Source of the DNA: a virus
IMG/VR virus record: IMGVR_UViG_3300032073_006207
Location: 1 to 26,458 of that record
DNA length: 26,458 bases
Strand: one strand, 5' to 3'
The notes beneath the pieces are model-generated. The model searched no databases. It saw only the letters and a program-made list of their open reading frames with translations, and was not told the DNA's origin. Positions 7,731-19,581 of this stretch are shown piece by piece. Made by a program: the position numbers and the translations under genes. Every line of letters starts with the position of its first letter. Position 1 is the stretch's first letter.

Positions 7731-8667
7731 GTTGTATAGCCTTATTAATAGTATTTAATACGTTTTCGTTAGTATTAAACGACTCTCTCCAAGAAGTACT
7801 ATTTCTAATAACAGACCAGAGATCGTACTCTTTAGCTTTATCTAAAAACTTTATAAAGTTACTTTTATGTAAATTTAAATCCTCGAGCTGTTGTTTATAA
7901 GCAGGTACTTCATCATCATAGTAGTTATAACCTACCTCTAAATTCATTAGTCCCCAATTGCGCTTATAGATATCAAACTGCTCTTCTGTTATTGAATCAC
8001 CATGTATTAGAGCGATTCGATCCTCACCATTCATAGTTACAATCTTATGCTCTAATTTTAGAAATCTTTTTATACCAAACCTAGGAAAACCTTGAATATT
8101 ATCAGACTTATCCCCAGTAACAACTCTATAAGACATATAGTATTCTCTTCTAACTCCAGTATACTCTTCGAAGTTATCTAGCGTTACTTCTTTCTTCTTG
8201 ATAGGATTATAGACTGTAATCTTTCGATTAATAAGTTGTAGTAGGTCTTTATCTGTAGTAACAATTACATTCTTACCTTCTAGATTTCTAGCAAGCCAAG
8301 CCATTAAATCGTCAGCTTCCATTCGTTTAGGGTAAATATTTTTGACTCCTAATAAGGAGATTGTCTCAATAATTTTATCTAAAAACTCAAATACATCTTT
8401 AAACTTATCGTCATCTCGACCAGCTTTATATTCTACTCCTGCAGCTTCTTTACGGAAATTAGTTGATGGCCAATCAAGCTTTTTATCCCAAGTACAATAA
8501 ACGTTTTTTGCTTGAAACTTATCTACATAGGATTTTAAAGCTCTTAAGAATAAAAAAATCTGACCCGGAGAATCAGATTCATTTATTTTAAAGTTACTAG
8601 TCCAGAAGATACGGTATAGCAAATTATTGCCGTCGATTATTATGTTATCTTTCCCACCAGTTTTCAT
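7717..8667 (-). CDS. rnh: RNase H / 5'-3' exonuclease (FEN-like)
   Basis: 316 aa, close to T4 RNase H (305 aa). It removes RNA primers and 5' flaps during Okazaki-fragment processing. Acidic metal-binding sites in order: IIIDGNNLLYR (D12), RMEADDLMAWLA (117-120), VIVTTDKDLLQL (137-141) and VTGDKSDNIQGFPRFG (185-198), the last leading into the helix-three-turn DNA-binding region. The YKAGRDDD stretch corresponds to the arch region of these nucleases. The ATG lies inside the last codons of rmlB (23-nt overlap); no later ATG precedes the first catalytic Asp, so this start is required. A DNA polymerase I-type 5' nuclease is the only close alternative and has the same chemistry. Confidence 0.9.
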   Translation of the reverse strand: MKTGGKDNIIIDGNNLLYRIFWTSNFKINESDSPGQIFLFLRALKSYVDKFQAKNVYCTWDKKLDWPSTNFRKEAAGVEYKAGRDDDKFKDVFEFLDKIIETISLLGVKNIYPKRMEADDLMAWLARNLEGKNVIVTTDKDLLQLINRKITVYNPIKKKEVTLDNFEEYTGVRREYYMSYRVVTGDKSDNIQGFPRFGIKRFLKLEHKIVTMNGEDRIALIHGDSITEEQFDIYKRNWGLMNLEVGYNYYDDEVPAYKQQLEDLNLHKSNFIKFLDKAKEYDLWSVIRNSTSWRESFNTNENVLNTINKAIQHAHT

Positions 8668-9649
8668 ATTCTTGATACCACATTATAGTGTATCTCAAAT
8701 CATCGGCAAATGTTTTCTCCGTTCCAGGCAGAACTAATTGTTGATGATTTGCAGCCATTATACGTCTGTAATTAGAGTCTCGTAGACAATATTTTAAATC
8801 ATGACCTTTCCTATCTTCAACAAAATTAATTAAACTCTCTGGTTTGTGAAGTATATCTAAAATATCTTTCACTAGACTAATATTATTAATTTCACCGTAG
8901 TCATTATTATTATAATTAGGAGCTAAATTATAAACTTGACCACTCTCTCCAAACTTTAAGACGTTAAATATCTTCTCACAATGATCTTTAACATAAATCC
9001 ATTGTCGTATATTTTTACCAGTACCGTAAACTGGTATTTTTTCATCTGCTAGAGCCTTTTTAACTACTACCGGTATTAGTTTTTCTGGATATTGTCTTGG
9101 ACCGAAATTATTAGTACATCGTGTTACAATAACATCTCTTTTATATGTATGGTAATAAGAAAGGGTAATTAAATCTGCCGCGGCTTTTGTAGCTGAATAG
9201 ATGGATGATGGTTCTAGTCTATCAAAATCTTCACTTGGTGAACTCTCAAGCTCCAAGCTACCATATACTTCATCTGTACCTATTTGAATAAATCGTTGAC
9301 CTTCTCTGAGTTGATTAAGTAAATGATAAGCCCCAACTATATTTGATTCAATAAATGGATCACCGTTTTCAATACTATTATCAACGTGAGATTCAGCTGC
9401 AAAATTAATAACATAATCATATACAGCGACTTTATTAAATTCGTGTATAGGTTTAAATTCAATTTCTAGTTTATTCTTTTTATCTAAGAAGAGATCCCAT
9501 AATAAGTTCTCTGTTCTCTCAGATACACTATAATTATAACTATCAACAATTGTTATTTTGCAGTTATCACATTCTTTGTGTAATAGTTCTACAAAGTGAC
9601 TACCGATAAAACCTAAACCACCGGTAACTAAAATATGCTTATTCTTCAT
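8645..9649 (-). CDS. rmlB: dTDP-glucose 4,6-dehydratase (RmlB-type)
   Basis: 334 aa, typical for the family. It converts dTDP-glucose into dTDP-4-keto-6-deoxyglucose using NAD+. Rossmann fold with VTGGLGFIGS (8-17), the NAD ribose site IVDSYNY (34-40), the active-site triplet T-D-E in QIGTDEVYG (125-127) that is specific to the 4,6-dehydratases, YSATK (Y151, K155) and NNFGPRQYPEKLIP. The T-D-E triplet separates it from simple 4-epimerases. Its ATG overlaps the end of the RmlD gene and its 3' end overlaps RNase H, so it is built into the replication operon. The substrate would come from the RmlA gene at the left edge of the window, on the other strand. Sugar genes like this are known from marine T4-like phages. 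Confidence 0.92.
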   Translation of the reverse strand: MKNKHILVTGGLGFIGSHFVELLHKECDNCKITIVDSYNYSVSERTENLLWDLFLDKKNKLEIEFKPIHEFNKVAVYDYVINFAAESHVDNSIENGDPFIESNIVGAYHLLNQLREGQRFIQIGTDEVYGSLELESSPSEDFDRLEPSSIYSATKAAADLITLSYYHTYKRDVIVTRCTNNFGPRQYPEKLIPVVVKKALADEKIPVYGTGKNIRQWIYVKDHCEKIFNVLKFGESGQVYNLAPNYNNNDYGEINNISLVKDILDILHKPESLINFVEDRKGHDLKYCLRDSNYRRIMAANHQQLVLPGTEKTFADDLRYTIMWYQEYENWWER

Positions 9650-10538
9650 TAAATAAAATTCTCTCTAAAGACTCTCTTTCAGAAGGCATTTCAATATTGT
9701 ATAGCTTACTCTTTTCTGTAGAAAGCTTACAATTAGATCTATTTACCTTAATATGGTTTTTAAGTTCTTTATAGTCTATAAATTTCCAATGCGGATTCCA
9801 CATACCTACCTTGTCTAAAATCTCTGTTACTTCTTTTGTACTAAGTGGGTTTGGATTTACACAATTATAGGCTCCTGCTGGTAGCTCTTCTAGATTAGTA
9901 ATCCGATGTATAACATTAATCAGGTCTTCAATAACAGTTTTAGAGTTAGTTTCTTCCAATAAGTTATTGTACTTGAGAACCTTTGTCAGGTAGTTTTTTC
10001 TTGCGTTAAAGTCGTTACATATGGGCATACGTATTCTAAGGGTATACACATTAGGAAAAGCATTTAGACTAAGTTCTGCTGCATGTTTAGCACGACTATA
10101 CCAACTACTATCCTTACTATCTAATCCAAAGTCTGGCCAATCATCTTCATTGTAGTTTTTCGGACCGTCATATACACAACCTGTACTAACTGTAATGAGT
10201 TTAATATTATTTTGTAAACAATAATTCGCTAGTAAGATAGGAAATGTAACATTAAGTTTCCAGCATTTTTCTTTTTCGTCCTCGCACGCGTCTACGTTAG
10301 GATTACCAGTGTAACCTACACAATTAACAACCCACGGTCGATCCGCTGGATCTTTGAAACCAGGGCTGTTCGCGTATCGAATTTCATTACCAACTATAGA
10401 GTTAAATTCTAGTGCCAGCTTTTCTGGATTCTCGTAACTCAAACCACTTACTACTGCTATCTCATCTACTCGGGAAGATAATTGCTTTTTAATTTTCTGT
10501 CCGATATAGCCATTACCAATTACAACTAATTTACTCAT
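9639..10538 (-). CDS. dTDP-4-dehydrorhamnose reductase-like SDR enzyme (RmlD-type)
   Basis: 299 aa. Start MSKLVVIGNGYIG at 10538 is chosen; the longer frame to 10577 begins with TTG. Short-chain dehydrogenase fold with GNGYIGQK (8-15), VVNCVGYTGNPNVDACE (like RmlD 'INAAAYTAVDKAE'), LNVTFPILLANYC, STGCVYDG (118-124), and catalytic Y147 and K151 (WYSRAKHAAE). The C-terminal VNRSNCKLSTEKSKL resembles the RmlD 'RPxNSxLxTxK' ending. It would reduce the 4-keto group of a dTDP-deoxysugar. Its ATG lies in the end of the upstream unknown gene (ATGAGTAA) and its stop overlaps rmlB, so all are translationally linked. Because RmlC is not in the window, the end product may be rhamnose or another 6-deoxysugar. 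Confidence 0.75.
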   Translation of the reverse strand: MSKLVVIGNGYIGQKIKKQLSSRVDEIAVVSGLSYENPEKLALEFNSIVGNEIRYANSPGFKDPADRPWVVNCVGYTGNPNVDACEDEKEKCWKLNVTFPILLANYCLQNNIKLITVSTGCVYDGPKNYNEDDWPDFGLDSKDSSWYSRAKHAAELSLNAFPNVYTLRIRMPICNDFNARKNYLTKVLKYNNLLEETNSKTVIEDLINVIHRITNLEELPAGAYNCVNPNPLSTKEVTEILDKVGMWNPHWKFIDYKELKNHIKVNRSNCKLSTEKSKLYNIEMPSERESLERILFNEE

Positions 10539-10824
10539 TGCTATCTGGATTGTTTTTTTGTTCTTGTGTTGTGTCAAAAAAATCTATTTTTCCTACACGT
10601 CGTAGTAAGGTTTCAATTGCGTCGTAATCTTGCGGGGTCTTACCTGCGATAATTACTACACTTTCTCCTCTAGTGTCATAACCGAGTAAAACAAAGCTCT
10701 TAAGAAATTCAGAAAGGTAATCATTCATTACCGATAAATCTTGCTCGTTGTTCTCAGTAGATTCTGCAGCACTAATACTAGATTTTAATAAACTATCAAA
10801 GTCTTTTTGGGTTTTTTTATTCAC
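10531..10824 (-). CDS. Small protein of unknown function
   Basis: 97 aa, GTG start overlapping the previous stop (GTGA). The N-terminal third is polar and probably disordered (SSISAAESTENNEQD). The central part looks folded (LSEFLKSFVLLGYDTRG, SVVIIAGKTPQDYDAIETLLRRV), and the C-terminus is a polar tail. Not recognised, and no catalytic or metal motif is visible. It is part of the unbroken chain gp45 - 99 aa - this gene - rmlD, so it is certainly co-transcribed with clamp and sugar genes. Confidence 0.65.
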   Translation of the reverse strand: MNKKTQKDFDSLLKSSISAAESTENNEQDLSVMNDYLSEFLKSFVLLGYDTRGESVVIIAGKTPQDYDAIETLLRRVGKIDFFDTTQEQKNNPDSNE

Positions 10825-15096: not shown

Positions 15097-16449
15097 TTAC
15101 ACCTGTCTACCGAATTGTACAGCGTCGTTTTCCGCAGCGTTAATCTCATCGTTTACATTTAAGTCATTATTTTCTTCAAGAGTTAAAGTTGTATAGTCAA
15201 TACTCATACGAGTTGATCCAGTATTAGCTCCAAACCTATTTTTAATAATACCTATATGTAACGCATTATCTTCTTCGTCTTGCTCAGTTCGCCAAATACT
15301 AACTATAGCATCAGCGGTAGCTCCTAAACCATAACTCTCTCCTATCGACTCCAAGCCAGGCCCACCAGCATCATTATTGTTACCATAGCCAGTACGGTTT
15401 ACCTGAGTAGCAGATATAATAGGGCATTCAAATGTATAAGACATTGCTCTCACCTGTTCTGATATATTTTTAATACGTTCATATGAGTTATTACCATATG
15501 TCGCCCCCATAAGGTTTAGATAATCTAATACGATAATATCGGGCTTAAATCCTTTATTGGTAAGTTTTTTAATATACCCTTCAAGTTGCGGTGGTGTAAT
15601 AGAGTTAGGTGGGAACTCTTTAATTAACATTTTACTATCGGGATGCAAAGATTTAAATGTATTAACCTTTTCCTTTAAAGTTTCAACATGATCTTGTAAT
15701 CTATTAATTGGAAGCCCTGTAAGCTTTGATGTAATACGTTTACTATAAATCATCTCTGACATTTCTAAGGACACGACGAGTACTTTTTTACCAGCTTCAG
15801 CTGCGTTAGTTGCAACATTACTAAGAAAAATCGACTTACCTACGTTTGTCGGTCCAGCAAATATATACATCGACCTACCATCTTCTAAGAAACCACCATC
15901 TAGCCTTTCATCTAACCAGTCCCACCCAGTCTTAATAGTAGTTTGTCTAGTAGTTAGGTCACTAATATGTTGTTCTATATCTTCGAAATAATCGTGACCA
16001 ATATTACTATTAATAGATATGTTACAAGCTTTATTAAATTTCTCATGAATAGTTTTTACATCTCGTTCTTTACTATCAACAATTTCTAAGAATGTATTAA
16101 ATACAGCTTGTTCTTGGAGAAATTTTTCTGTATATAAAAATAACTGTTCGTCATTTAAATCAGAGTTAATATCATTAGTTATAACTTTAGTTTTTTCATA
16201 ATGCTCTTTTAATTGATCAGTATTAAGATATAATTCTAGTTCTGTTCTAGAAGGTCTTCTCTTATTTTTCTTATACAGTGCTTGAATTATTTTTATAATC
16301 TGCTGAAAGTCTTTATTCTTAAAAAACTTATAGTTCAGATTATCAATTATAGAGTTTAAGTATATTTCATCTTCAAGACAGTTCTTAAAGACAATACGCT
16401 CTAAATAATCAAGATCTATATCGAGGTAGTTACTTTCGCTTGTTAGCAT
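15097..16449 (-). CDS. 41: Replicative DNA helicase, gp41 (DnaB-type)
   Basis: 450 aa; T4 gp41 is 475 aa. It is a hexameric 5'-3' helicase that unwinds the fork and recruits primase. The RecA-like core has Walker A FAGPTNVGKS (about 197-206), EMSEMIYSKRI (the catalytic Glu of DnaB helicases lies in this SLEMS segment), Walker B PDIIVLDYLNLM (about 303-314), and downstream ISATQVNRTG, ESIGESYGLGATAD and KNRFG, which form the DNA-binding loops and arginine-finger region. The N-terminal region is helical, as in the DnaB N-terminal domain. The start MLTSESNYLDIDLDYLE is preferred; the frame upstream begins with TTG inside the glycosyltransferase gene, and this ATG still overlaps that gene by 20 nt. 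Confidence 0.95.
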   Translation of the reverse strand: MLTSESNYLDIDLDYLERIVFKNCLEDEIYLNSIIDNLNYKFFKNKDFQQIIKIIQALYKKNKRRPSRTELELYLNTDQLKEHYEKTKVITNDINSDLNDEQLFLYTEKFLQEQAVFNTFLEIVDSKERDVKTIHEKFNKACNISINSNIGHDYFEDIEQHISDLTTRQTTIKTGWDWLDERLDGGFLEDGRSMYIFAGPTNVGKSIFLSNVATNAAEAGKKVLVVSLEMSEMIYSKRITSKLTGLPINRLQDHVETLKEKVNTFKSLHPDSKMLIKEFPPNSITPPQLEGYIKKLTNKGFKPDIIVLDYLNLMGATYGNNSYERIKNISEQVRAMSYTFECPIISATQVNRTGYGNNNDAGGPGLESIGESYGLGATADAIVSIWRTEQDEEDNALHIGIIKNRFGANTGSTRMSIDYTTLTLEENNDLNVNDEINAAENDAVQFGRQV

Positions 16450-17134
16450 ATGTCGTGAGGGTATTATATAGGTAATCCTCTGATAATGCAAATTCTTCTG
16501 TGTAGTTAGTTAAACCCGGGGAGTCGTGAATAACTTGTATTGGCGCGGTAGTCAATTTCATACCAGCTACGTGACAGTCAAAACAAAATTTAAGATCATA
16601 ATGATGAAATCCTTTTATTTTTTCATCAAACCGTACTTGGTGTAAAGCTAAAGATTTTGTTTTGACAGCTAAAAATAAACCATCTAGTAGTACTACTTCA
16701 CGAGGGGTTGGTCCGAATAATGTTTGATAATATTCTGTTTTATTTTTATAATGGGCAACTATTCCAGACAATGATTCTGGTTTACACATAAGATGCCATA
16801 GACATGGTTTCTTAACTTGGAGCTTACTTCCTCCCGCCAGACCAACTACGTCATAACCTAGTTTAAACTGCTCTCGTATACACGTGAGAAAGTTAACGCT
16901 ATCTATATGTAGATCATCATGTACAAATAAAATACAATCGTATTTTTTTAAATTATCTTTAGTAATGTATCGATTGTATACTGAGCACAACCCTTCTTTA
17001 TTTTCATATGTAGGTTTTAAGGTATATGAAACTATAGATTGTTTTTCTCGATGGAGGGCTAAACTTTTTGATAGTCTAGTATTCTTGAAATCACTCGCAG
17101 TATGCTTTGTAGCAGTTACTATTAAGGTTTTCAT
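16430..17134 (-). CDS. GT-A type glycosyltransferase-like protein
   Basis: 234 aa. The fold is inferred from a Rossmann-like start (MKTLIVTATKHTASDF), a nucleotide-sugar/metal site CILFVHDDLHI (68-77) with the Asp pair, VVGLAGGSK, VVLLDGLFLAVKTKSL (the 'DGxFLA' acceptor strand) and GFHHYDLKFCFDCHVAGMKL followed by IQVIHDSPG. The last part is the 'YDxDFCLRAxxAGY...V.H.S' pattern of small family 2-like glycosyltransferases. The acceptor is unknown. It overlaps the amidotransferase gene by 4 nt and the helicase gene by 20 nt. It could modify virion or host surface polysaccharide, or, more speculatively, a phage DNA base; the neighbouring 7-deazaguanine genes make the latter worth considering. 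Confidence 0.75.
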   Translation of the reverse strand: MKTLIVTATKHTASDFKNTRLSKSLALHREKQSIVSYTLKPTYENKEGLCSVYNRYITKDNLKKYDCILFVHDDLHIDSVNFLTCIREQFKLGYDVVGLAGGSKLQVKKPCLWHLMCKPESLSGIVAHYKNKTEYYQTLFGPTPREVVLLDGLFLAVKTKSLALHQVRFDEKIKGFHHYDLKFCFDCHVAGMKLTTAPIQVIHDSPGLTNYTEEFALSEDYLYNTLTTYANKRK

Positions 17135-17769
17135 AAAAAAAACGGAGTAGAATTTAGTTTAAACTTATCTATTTCATTAAAATTATTGTTTGTAAAGTTA
17201 TATTCTAATATATTACCCTCGTCTATATATTTATAATCCGGTATAGCTGTAGATGTAAAATTACCTCTATAATGATGTAATGTACTCCCGGATCTGAAAA
17301 TACGTAAACTACCATTTTTTGCGTCATAATACCAACAAGCAAATGTACCCTCTAGAGTTTCTAAAGCCCTTTTAAATCCTATCGTTTCCATCAACGGTAG
17401 AATTACACTGCTATCTACATTACTACAATTATCTAATTTATGTTCTTTAATTAATTCTCTATCATTACCAAGTACCCCATTGTGCGCTAAATACCTTTCA
17501 TTTAGAGTAAACGGATGAGAAGTCTCTTCATCAAACTCCCTTACCTCTGACGTTGGAGATTGAACATGACCAAGATAATAGATACAAAACGGACTCTCTA
17601 TTATCGGTTTATTAAAATCAGTTACGTGGGTAGTTTTTACTAAGGTACCACTCTGTAAACCTTGTGGAAATAATTGTGTAATACTACGTACAAAATTACC
17701 TCGCTCTGTGTTCTTCGCACAAAGCTCTCTAAATTCTTCTATATTATTTGATCCAAAAATACCGCACAT
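17131..17769 (-). CDS. Stand-alone class II glutamine amidotransferase, Gat partner of QueC
   Basis: 212 aa, about one full Ntn-hydrolase amidotransferase domain with nothing attached. It starts MCGIFGSNN, so the catalytic nucleophile Cys2 becomes N-terminal after Met removal. Other glutaminase landmarks: R23 region, YYLGHVQSPTS (65-74, corresponding to 'GHxRxxT'), LAHNGVLGN (94-102, with the oxyanion Asn/Gly), VDSSVI (118-123) and EGTFACWYYD. It releases ammonia from glutamine for a partner enzyme. The gene starts 11 nt after queC, and fusions of this domain to QueC (Gat-QueC) are known to act in archaeosine-type chemistry from preQ0, including in phages. Here the two are separate genes in the order queC then gat. 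Alternatives such as an asparagine synthetase or sugar aminotransferase fragment lack a partner domain here. Confidence 0.82.
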   Translation of the reverse strand: MCGIFGSNNIEEFRELCAKNTERGNFVRSITQLFPQGLQSGTLVKTTHVTDFNKPIIESPFCIYYLGHVQSPTSEVREFDEETSHPFTLNERYLAHNGVLGNDRELIKEHKLDNCSNVDSSVILPLMETIGFKRALETLEGTFACWYYDAKNGSLRIFRSGSTLHHYRGNFTSTAIPDYKYIDEGNILEYNFTNNNFNEIDKFKLNSTPFFL

Positions 17770-17780
17770 AATTATAAATG

Positions 17781-18500
17781 TTAAGAGTTTTTCATATCTA
17801 AATCAACTATTCTTACCCATGGAATATCTTCTCGTTTATACTCTACTGGGTCAATAAGTTTATTTTGTAAAAATCCCTGTATACGAGAGCTACAAGCAGT
17901 ACAGTAACCGCATGCTTTATCTTCTCCCTCGTAACACGTCCAGGTATTTTCAAATTTAACACCATTAGTAATACCTATATTAATAATTTCTTTTTTAGAT
18001 AGTTTAATTAACGGAGCTTCTATTTTAATTTTATTTTTTCTATTTAAAGCAGCAACGTTGTTTATCTCTGCGAGGAACTCTTTACTACCATCCCAATAAC
18101 CAGCTTGGCTATCTACTAAAGCAGACCCGTGATATACTGTATCAGCTCCAACAGCTTCGGCGTACGAACATGCAATTGATAACATCATCATATTCCGAAA
18201 TGGTACATAATTTACTGTTTGAGCGTCTCCAAGCACATCACGGGCGTGAGCTACTTTAATATTGTCGTTAGTAAGAGAAGAGGTTGGCGCTATATCCTTA
18301 AAGAAACTTATATCAATAATTTTATGCTCTTCAATATTATTATATTCATCAATTTGAAGACCTGCATATAATATTTCTTTATTATGCTTTTGTCCGTAAT
18401 TATAAGTTAGTGCGTAAACTTCTTCATGAACGCTTGCCGCTAAACTTAAAATTACTGAACTATCTAAACCCCCTGATATAGGTACTACTGCTTTACTCAT
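17781..18500 (-). CDS. queC: 7-cyano-7-deazaguanine (preQ0) synthase QueC
   Basis: 239 aa, typical for QueC. It converts 7-carboxy-7-deazaguanine to preQ0 using ATP and ammonia. The PP-loop SGGLDSS (9-15) binds ATP. VNYVPFRNMMMLSIA (97-110) is a QueC signature, and zinc ligands C189, C197, C200 and C203 lie in TCYEGEDKACGYCTACSSR. All key residues are intact. PreQ0 is the precursor of queuosine and of 7-deazaguanine DNA bases in some phages. The ATG overlaps the uvsX end (ATGAGTAA), so it is coupled to the recombinase. The upstream steps (FolE, QueD, QueE) and a DNA transglycosylase (DpdA) are not in the window; they may lie elsewhere in the phage genome or be supplied by the host. Confidence 0.95.
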   Translation of the reverse strand: MSKAVVPISGGLDSSVILSLAASVHEEVYALTYNYGQKHNKEILYAGLQIDEYNNIEEHKIIDISFFKDIAPTSSLTNDNIKVAHARDVLGDAQTVNYVPFRNMMMLSIACSYAEAVGADTVYHGSALVDSQAGYWDGSKEFLAEINNVAALNRKNKIKIEAPLIKLSKKEIINIGITNGVKFENTWTCYEGEDKACGYCTACSSRIQGFLQNKLIDPVEYKREDIPWVRIVDLDMKNS

Positions 18501-19581
18501 CTTCTTGTTCTAATATAGCTACTTCATTAAGAGACTTACCATACCGGTACTTCTCACTTATAGAAGATTCTAACTTAGGTAACACAGAATTCCACGTTTC
18601 TTCATCATTGCGCCAATTCTTATAATAACCTAGCTTTTTATCTCCCATACTATACGTAGAACCATTTTGCTGTATAATTCCATGAGATACAGCAATATCT
18701 TTAAGTCCTGAATATTTCTCTAATCCAGTCTTAAAGTTGAGATAGGCTTCCCCTTGCAAGAAGGCAGGAATAAACCTATTTTTTACAGTTAGCATACGAA
18801 GAGTAACGCCGGAATAGTTACGACTTTCAGTAAGAGCTTCGTCGTTCGTATTACCAGCATCAGTTCTCTCTTTTTTTGCTGCCATTTGTACTAAGATAGA
18901 CGCCATGTACACAGGACCAGACCCACCAGCTTGTTGCTTAACTAAGGTAGGATGGAGTGCACCAGGGTCAGCGTACGTATGATTACTAGCAATTACAGTT
19001 GTACCTGTAACTGCTGCTTTATATGTAATTATACGCATCATGGATTTGAGCTGCTTGGCTCTGAGACCCATGTCCATGGCGCCTTTATTAGCACCAGCAT
19101 CATTTATTTCTTTCTCTGATGCTAAATTACCGAGGGAATCAATAGAAATAATAAACTTACCATGTAGTTCCGGTTCTTTTTCTACTTCATCTAAAAATGT
19201 CATAATCTGATTTCGACAACTTTCTACTGTATCTACAGGTACGTATTTTACATTAGATGTATCTAAACCGACATTTTCAGCTCCCTCGTTTTCTACTGCT
19301 ACCTCTGTATCAAAGATAACAGGTACCATGCCTTTTCGTTGTGCATGCGCTAAGATCTTATTCAAGATAAAAGTCTTACCACAACCCGACTCTCCTGCAA
19401 AAATAGTAATTCTACCTTTAGGTACCCCGCCATATAGAGAACCCGAAATAATAGAGTTTAACACTAAACAACCAGTATCAATCCAATCAGTAACATTACT
19501 GAGGGTATTTTTTTCTAACGTTGTGGCGTTATTGTTTAGTTTTTGCAGTTTAGCAAATGCTTTATCAACGAGACTAGACAT
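18493..19581 (-). CDS. uvsX: UvsX recombinase (RecA family)
   Basis: 362 aa; T4 UvsX is 391 aa. It forms filaments on single-stranded DNA and drives strand exchange and recombination-dependent replication. Core motifs: Walker A FAGESGCGKT (61-70), VIFDTEVAVENEGAENVGLD, Walker B KFIISIDSLGNL (about 141-152), ASNHTYADP and QQAGGSGPVYMAS. The set matches the phage-type RecA. It ends in an acidic, polar tail (NEVAILEQEDE) as usual for RecA-like proteins. It begins 3 nt after the Sm-like gene and overlaps queC by 8 nt. It is the second gene after a proposed sigma70-type promoter at 19945-19972. Confidence 0.95.
   Translation of the reverse strand: MSSLVDKAFAKLQKLNNNATTLEKNTLSNVTDWIDTGCLVLNSIISGSLYGGVPKGRITIFAGESGCGKTFILNKILAHAQRKGMVPVIFDTEVAVENEGAENVGLDTSNVKYVPVDTVESCRNQIMTFLDEVEKEPELHGKFIISIDSLGNLASEKEINDAGANKGAMDMGLRAKQLKSMMRIITYKAAVTGTTVIASNHTYADPGALHPTLVKQQAGGSGPVYMASILVQMAAKKERTDAGNTNDEALTESRNYSGVTLRMLTVKNRFIPAFLQGEAYLNFKTGLEKYSGLKDIAVSHGIIQQNGSTYSMGDKKLGYYKNWRNDEETWNSVLPKLESSISEKYRYGKSLNEVAILEQEDE

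Follow-up and report, generated by a model that had tools for sequence, protein, structure and literature searches.

In most bacteria QueC uses free ammonia and has no Gat partner; the E. coli enzyme likewise works without a glutaminase and carries the substrate motif YPDC. Among the closest described systems that include a glutaminase are the fused Gat-QueC proteins of phage 9g and archaea, in which a class II glutaminase is joined to the QueC ATPase and which belong to the archaeosine pathway. According to PMC6884629, fused Gat-QueC together with DpdA yields dG+. Here we describe a phage locus in which QueC and a class II glutaminase (Gat) are encoded by separate, neighbouring genes, and we propose that the two proteins probably form a two-subunit, glutamine-dependent QueC in which Gat supplies the ammonia and which feeds phage DNA modification. 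If so, QueC, described as an ammonia-using enzyme, would also exist in phages and bacteria in a form that depends on glutamine.

The queC-gat locus and its two proteins

The window, that is, the whole stretch of DNA analysed here, is an entire IMG/VR record of 26,458 bp rather than part of a larger one, and is a fragment of a phage genome. We regard the phage as T4-like because the window carries terminase, family B polymerase, gp46/gp47, gp32 and UvsX-like genes. A minus-strand operon runs in the order uvsX-queC-gat-glycosyltransferase-dnaB. The uvsX recombinase gene (18493-19581; phrog_97, 5.8e-59) overlaps queC (17781-18500) by 8 nt, and a spacer of 11 nt (17770-17780) separates queC from gat (17131-17769). 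The glycosyltransferase gene (Glyco_tranf_2_5; 16430-17134; PF13712, 5.9e-13) overlaps gat by 4 nt (ATGA) and is translationally coupled to it, and a DnaB-like replicative helicase (15097-16491; PF03796, 1.1e-28; phrog_19, 7e-78) lies downstream in the same operon. The coordinates, profile matches and catalytic residues thus agree with the original prediction, made from the DNA alone, that an 11-nt gap separates queC from a free-standing class II glutaminase with an intact Cys2 downstream of it. Elsewhere in the window, adjoining genes encode a nucleotide-sugar epimerase (8645-9649) and an RmlD-like protein (9639-10577), and a link to two glycosyltransferases is possible.

QueC (239 aa) matches PF06508 (Pfam; 5.2e-59, score 199.7 against a cut-off of 22) and exceeds the cut-off of TIGR00364 (NCBIfam; 171.8 against 150.3 bits). 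We used the QueC motif list of PMC13329287 and located the motifs by alignment on E. coli QueC, with which the window protein shares 34% identity. SGGxDS (SGGLDS, 18459-18476), YxQxHxxE (YGQKHNKE, 18375-18398), VPxRN (VPFRN, 18192-18206) and the zinc-binding C..CxxCxxC (CYEGEDKACGYCTAC, 17892-17936) are all present, as in the E. coli enzyme. The same alignment shows no YPDC in the window protein, which has YWDG (18087-18098) at that place; the essential Tyr and Asp are retained and the Pro and Cys are altered, as they are in the QueC partners of other separate Gats. One QueC subclade (L056, L059, L062, L064) lacks three of the four zinc-binding cysteines and keeps YxQxHxxE, VPxRN and YWDG where the sequence is complete.

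Gat (212 aa; GATase_6, PF13522, 2.3e-10) has the N-terminal nucleophile Cys2 (17764-17766), the Asn-Gly oxyanion hole (Asn97/Gly98, 17476-17481), Asp119 (17413-17415) and the Ntn fold of class II amidotransferases. Its AlphaFold (AF2) model (pLDDT 92) resembles the glutaminase domains of GlmS, PurF and AsnB, with a Foldseek value of 6.6e-9 against that of GlmS and VIA Z scores of about 20-21 against PurF and GlmS. It has no Arg at the position of GlmS Arg73, the residue that binds the glutamine carboxylate; the window protein has Gln70 there (17560-17562). Gln occupies this position in nearly all phage Gats, and Arg is found in L067 and in two of three Anaerolineae proteins. Consequently, phage Gats may bind glutamine differently or use another amide donor.

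Conservation and descent of the pair

A scan for QueC gave 68 viral loci, and wherever an IMG/VR locus reaches far enough past queC, gat is found downstream of it, with the exception of the distant L069. In the relatives gat is nearly always followed by the same glycosyltransferase, conserved in this position across IMG/VR, and dnaB. From the other direction, a Gat-profile scan returned more than 500 candidate stretches; among the best 80, which were examined, queC precedes gat in 51 of the 52 loci with room upstream, and the sole exception (L235) starts within an intervening gene. The locus sets of the two scans overlap. Since the same order recurs in more than 60 viral loci, the pairing is not a matter of chance.

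The intervening gene encodes a protein of ~318 aa and stands between the pair in roughly half of the relatives (L016:10686-11642; L046:12676-13731; L061:10708-11733); it is absent from the window. Its product is a GMP reductase homologue, with 7.8e-95 against NF003966 as opposed to 2.6e-48 against IMP dehydrogenase, an identity that was thereby ruled out, and the L046 homologue exceeds the GMP-reductase cut-off. Our guess is that it recycles the guanine displaced by a transglycosylase.

Vibrio phages nt-1, F86, 6E35.1a and 1.081.O, like Pseudomonas phage pf16, carry the pair too, in their case within a cluster that contains DpdA2 and, except in nt-1, QueF; in 6E35.1a the order is queD-folE-DpdA2-queF-queC-gat. 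For 1.081.O the gat product is annotated as a nucleophile aminohydrolase and for the other phages as a hypothetical protein, and the available parts of the papers on KVP40-like phages make no mention of a Gat beside queC. The earlier view that the pair sits in a replication operon and not in a preQ0 cluster holds for the window, where the genes lie behind uvsX; the pair is not restricted to such operons, since in the Vibrio and Pseudomonas phages it lies inside a preQ0 cluster. In Vibrio phage 2.275.O, gene 468 (L071:6537-8327), near queF, yhhQ, queC and gat, encodes a hypothetical protein that contains the motifs DSGGFQ and YDSSS, matches the DpdA2 profile weakly and is possibly a divergent transglycosylase. 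The record named Acinetobacter phage MD-2021a (L287, CAKLQH020000006.1) has bacterial housekeeping genes flanking queC and looks chromosomal. Two other proteins, which carry GlmS-like or Gat/QueC annotations, were rejected: gp41 of Pseudoalteromonas phage HP1 lacks QueC motifs, and gp48 of Bacillus phage BSTP12 is QueC alone.

In phylogenies, the QueC partners of separate Gats group in one clade (support 100/97), characterised by YWD in place of the canonical YPD (HWD in L067); outside it stand fused Gat-QueC and the Gat-less QueC proteins, that of E. coli included. The separate Gats likewise group in a clade of their own (95/87), which excludes fused Gat, AsnB and GlmS, and no grouping with amidotransferases of unrelated pathways was seen, an outcome that had been named beforehand as counting against a role in this pathway. 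In neither tree does the pair cluster with fused Gat-QueC, which was represented by two proteins, both from phages; the deeper placement is modestly supported and some branches are long. Because both proteins belong to clades separate from the fused ones, the description of the pair as a split Gat-QueC fusion has to be given up, and queC-gat looks like an old two-gene module rather than a broken fusion.

The pair is not confined to viruses. In an Anaerolineales assembly, a genome scan located gat next to queD and queE, on a contig whose start lies 61 bp ahead of gat; a full-length QueC was not found elsewhere in that assembly. Among 249 genomes of the class searched, two further cases appeared, G192 (queC-gat-queD-queE, next to a mutS-like ORF) and G176 (queC-gat, next to a sigma-factor-like ORF), which makes three in total, all draft assemblies. 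All three genomes encode QueA and TGT. Archaeosine in tRNA is not known from bacteria. Since queC-gat accompanies QueA and TGT, the Anaerolineae pair appears to serve tRNA queuosine, which needs no archaeosine.

The rest of the 7-deazaguanine pathway

As had been noted from the DNA alone, FolE, QueD and QueE are absent from the 26 kb window, and so are QueF and DpdA of the types tested. Since the window is the whole record, we looked for the missing pathway genes in its relatives. We found folE in 14 and queD in 13 of the 22 relatives that have long contigs; most of these contigs are partial, so the absence of a gene is no evidence of its loss. One relative, G005 (200,819 bp), is near complete and apparently circularly permuted, because its end sequences are neighbours in G003 and G011. 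It encodes folE, queD, queE, queF, a single queC, gat, GMP reductase, two AAA_28/dNK-like kinases, a formyltransferase and a TGT-fold transglycosylase, with the pathway genes scattered over the genome. The genes that the original prediction had proposed to look for outside the window (folE, queD, queE and a dpdA- or tgt-like gene) are thus all present in this relative, and FolE, QueD, QueE and a DpdA-type transglycosylase are also found in G003 and G004. These complete sets support the original prediction's proposal that a T4-like phage has a pathway for 7-deazaguanine modification of its DNA.

In G005, a distance of about 13-16 kb separates queC from folE, queD and queE, which are located upstream of it beyond sbcD; if this order is shared, the same genes would lie past the end of the window. 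The relative G001, whose QueC is 89% identical to that of the window, has queD and, by tblastn, queE and a kinase upstream of queC, and folE was not found in G001. QueF co-occurs with the pair in G003, G004, G005, pf16, 1.081.O, F86 and 2.275.O. The QueF proteins of pair-bearing phages have ESKSxK in those checked and SNCxVTxQPDW/F in most, which we take to be nitrile-reductase features. Judging by these relatives, the window's phage would belong to a complete 7-deazaguanine DNA-modification pathway, with the remaining genes presumably located outside the 26 kb record.

The transglycosylase was recognised by inspecting the ORFs around queF in G005. Profile searches had given no TGT (PF01702) in the 22 relatives and three named phages, only weak matches to DpdA1 (phrog_887) in the relatives, within a glycosyltransferase, and no DpdA2 (phrog_10773) in the relatives; the DpdA1 and DpdA2 profiles matched nothing credible among all ORFs of five relatives. 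Nucleoside deoxyribosyltransferase (PF05014) was also absent from the relatives, and a nucleotide-level route through this family was therefore dropped. The protein beside queF (L081:12799-13617, 272 aa), present in relatives but not in the window, has no significant match in Pfam or NCBIfam, and a formyltransferase-like gene also adjoins queF there. Its AF2 model (pLDDT 88.9) has TGT structures as its first Foldseek matches, with DpdA 7ui4 also among the matches, and DpdA 7ui4 at rank 1 in VIA-align (Z 18.6). With a TGT-type fold and invariant Asp57, Asp88 and Asp215, it belongs to the DpdA/TGT superfamily.

The protein is 46% identical to the annotated DpdA of Flavobacterium phage immuto, whose gene there precedes those for a formyltransferase, a kinase and QueF. 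The same four genes occur together in the window's relatives (G003, G004, G005 and most of the IMG/VR loci L155-L188; the contigs G008 and G011 end inside queF), whereas the region around the immuto cluster contains no queC-gat pair. Cui et al. reportedly described, in NAR in 2023, a subfamily DpdA3 as well as formyl-preQ1 as a base and DpdN as a formyltransferase; we take the relatives' transglycosylase to be DpdA3-like, and adopt the name formyl-preQ1 on the same assumption. AAA_28/dNK-like kinases are encoded beside the transglycosylase cluster (L081:11333-11908) and beside queE (L089:13054-13812); base exchange requires no nucleotide kinase. Replacement by dADG is reportedly complete in Campylobacter phage DNA. 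Of the 15 Campylobacter phage records with a match to the 272 aa protein, 14 encode a hypothetical protein of ~40% identity (28% in CC_R7), and PMC6884629 describes the DNA of Campylobacter phages as highly modified by dADG. One of these proteins, the Firehammervirus hypothetical protein gp056 of Campylobacter phage CP220 (L190:6995-7771; ~41% identity), is encoded next to a thymidylate-kinase-like gene.

The role of Gat and comparison with known systems

In the proposed pathway, FolE, QueD and QueE would produce 7-carboxy-7-deazaguanine. Gat would hydrolyse glutamine to release ammonia, presumably within a physical complex with QueC, which would use this ammonia and ATP to convert the acid to the amide and then to preQ0. 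QueF would reduce preQ0 to preQ1, and the DpdA3-like transglycosylase would exchange guanine in the phage DNA for preQ1. The formyltransferase encoded beside it may formylate the inserted base, and DNA carrying the modified base would be protected from restriction.

The original prediction had considered as its first option that Gat converts preQ0, either free or within DNA, to archaeosine by amidation and so gives dG+ in the DNA, as does the fused Gat-QueC of phage 9g. Such a reaction would fit the trace of dG+ in phage nt-1, which carries the separate pair together with an ArcS-like protein and for which PMC6884629 gives dPreQ0 at 0.11%, dADG at 0.035% and dG+ at 0.02% of G. We consider it unlikely here, because in Vibrio phage 6E35.1a, which has the separate pair and QueF, a base whose mass is that of dPreQ1 makes up 15% of dG by mass spectrometry, as given in PMC12028318. 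The distinct clades of the separate and fused proteins, the repeated company of a QueF with nitrile-reductase motifs and the presence of the pair in bacteria with tRNA-queuosine genes also argue against archaeosine.

It is likewise doubtful that Gat merely travels with queC and has a role of its own, such as providing ammonia to the adjacent glycosyltransferase or forming another amide. The overlap of the glycosyltransferase gene with gat, their joint conservation and the Gln at the Arg73 position are consistent with such a role, but the Vibrio and Pseudomonas phages and the Anaerolineae have queC followed by gat without this glycosyltransferase, and the QueC proteins with a separate Gat all belong to one clade, marked by the YWD signature. 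That the QueC homologue modifies a protein rather than making preQ0 is very improbable: QueC-family proteins (Cap9/QatC) of type IV CBASS and Qat systems carry out protein deazaguanylation, according to PMC13279940 and PMC13329287, but the window QueC passes the equivalog cut-off and retains YxQxHxxE, VPxRN and the zinc motif, the G005 protein is the only QueC found there and stands alongside folE, queD, queE and queF, and no CD-NTase or Qat partner is present among the window proteins scanned.

A glutaminase that feeds ammonia to QueC, which had been offered as the second option for this locus, is the reading that these observations favour. If Gat is a QueC subunit, a gat adjoining queC no longer indicates archaeosine, queF and the transglycosylase determine the product, and predictions of phage DNA bases change accordingly. 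More broadly, we lean towards the view that YWD-type QueC with a separate Gat represents a second, heteromeric and glutamine-dependent form of QueC, feeding a preQ1-type and possibly formylated DNA modification in phages; it would be common to many marine T4-like phages, KVP40-like phages and some Anaerolineae, and would have descended apart from both ammonia-using QueC and fused Gat-QueC.

The mechanism would be analogous to that of GMP synthetase, AsnB and related enzymes, in which a glutaminase gives ammonia to an N-type ATP pyrophosphatase, although the substrates of GMP synthetase and AsnB differ, the glutaminase of GMP synthetase is of class I, and AsnB, like GlmS, stands outside the separate-Gat clade. 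The window pair shares with fused Gat-QueC the coupling of a class II glutaminase with a QueC ATPase and a place in a phage 7-deazaguanine pathway; it differs in that the genes are separate with QueC first, in its YWDG motif (YPDN in phage 9g) and in the presence of QueF in the window's relatives, of which G005 yielded no ArcS. The KVP40-like Vibrio phages (nt-1, 6E35.1a) and pf16 have the same pair, QueC clade and YWD signature as the window, but keep the two genes with DpdA2 in a preQ0 cluster, queD-folE-DpdA2-(queF)-queC, whereas the window has them behind uvsX and its relatives encode a DpdA3-like transglycosylase elsewhere in the genome.
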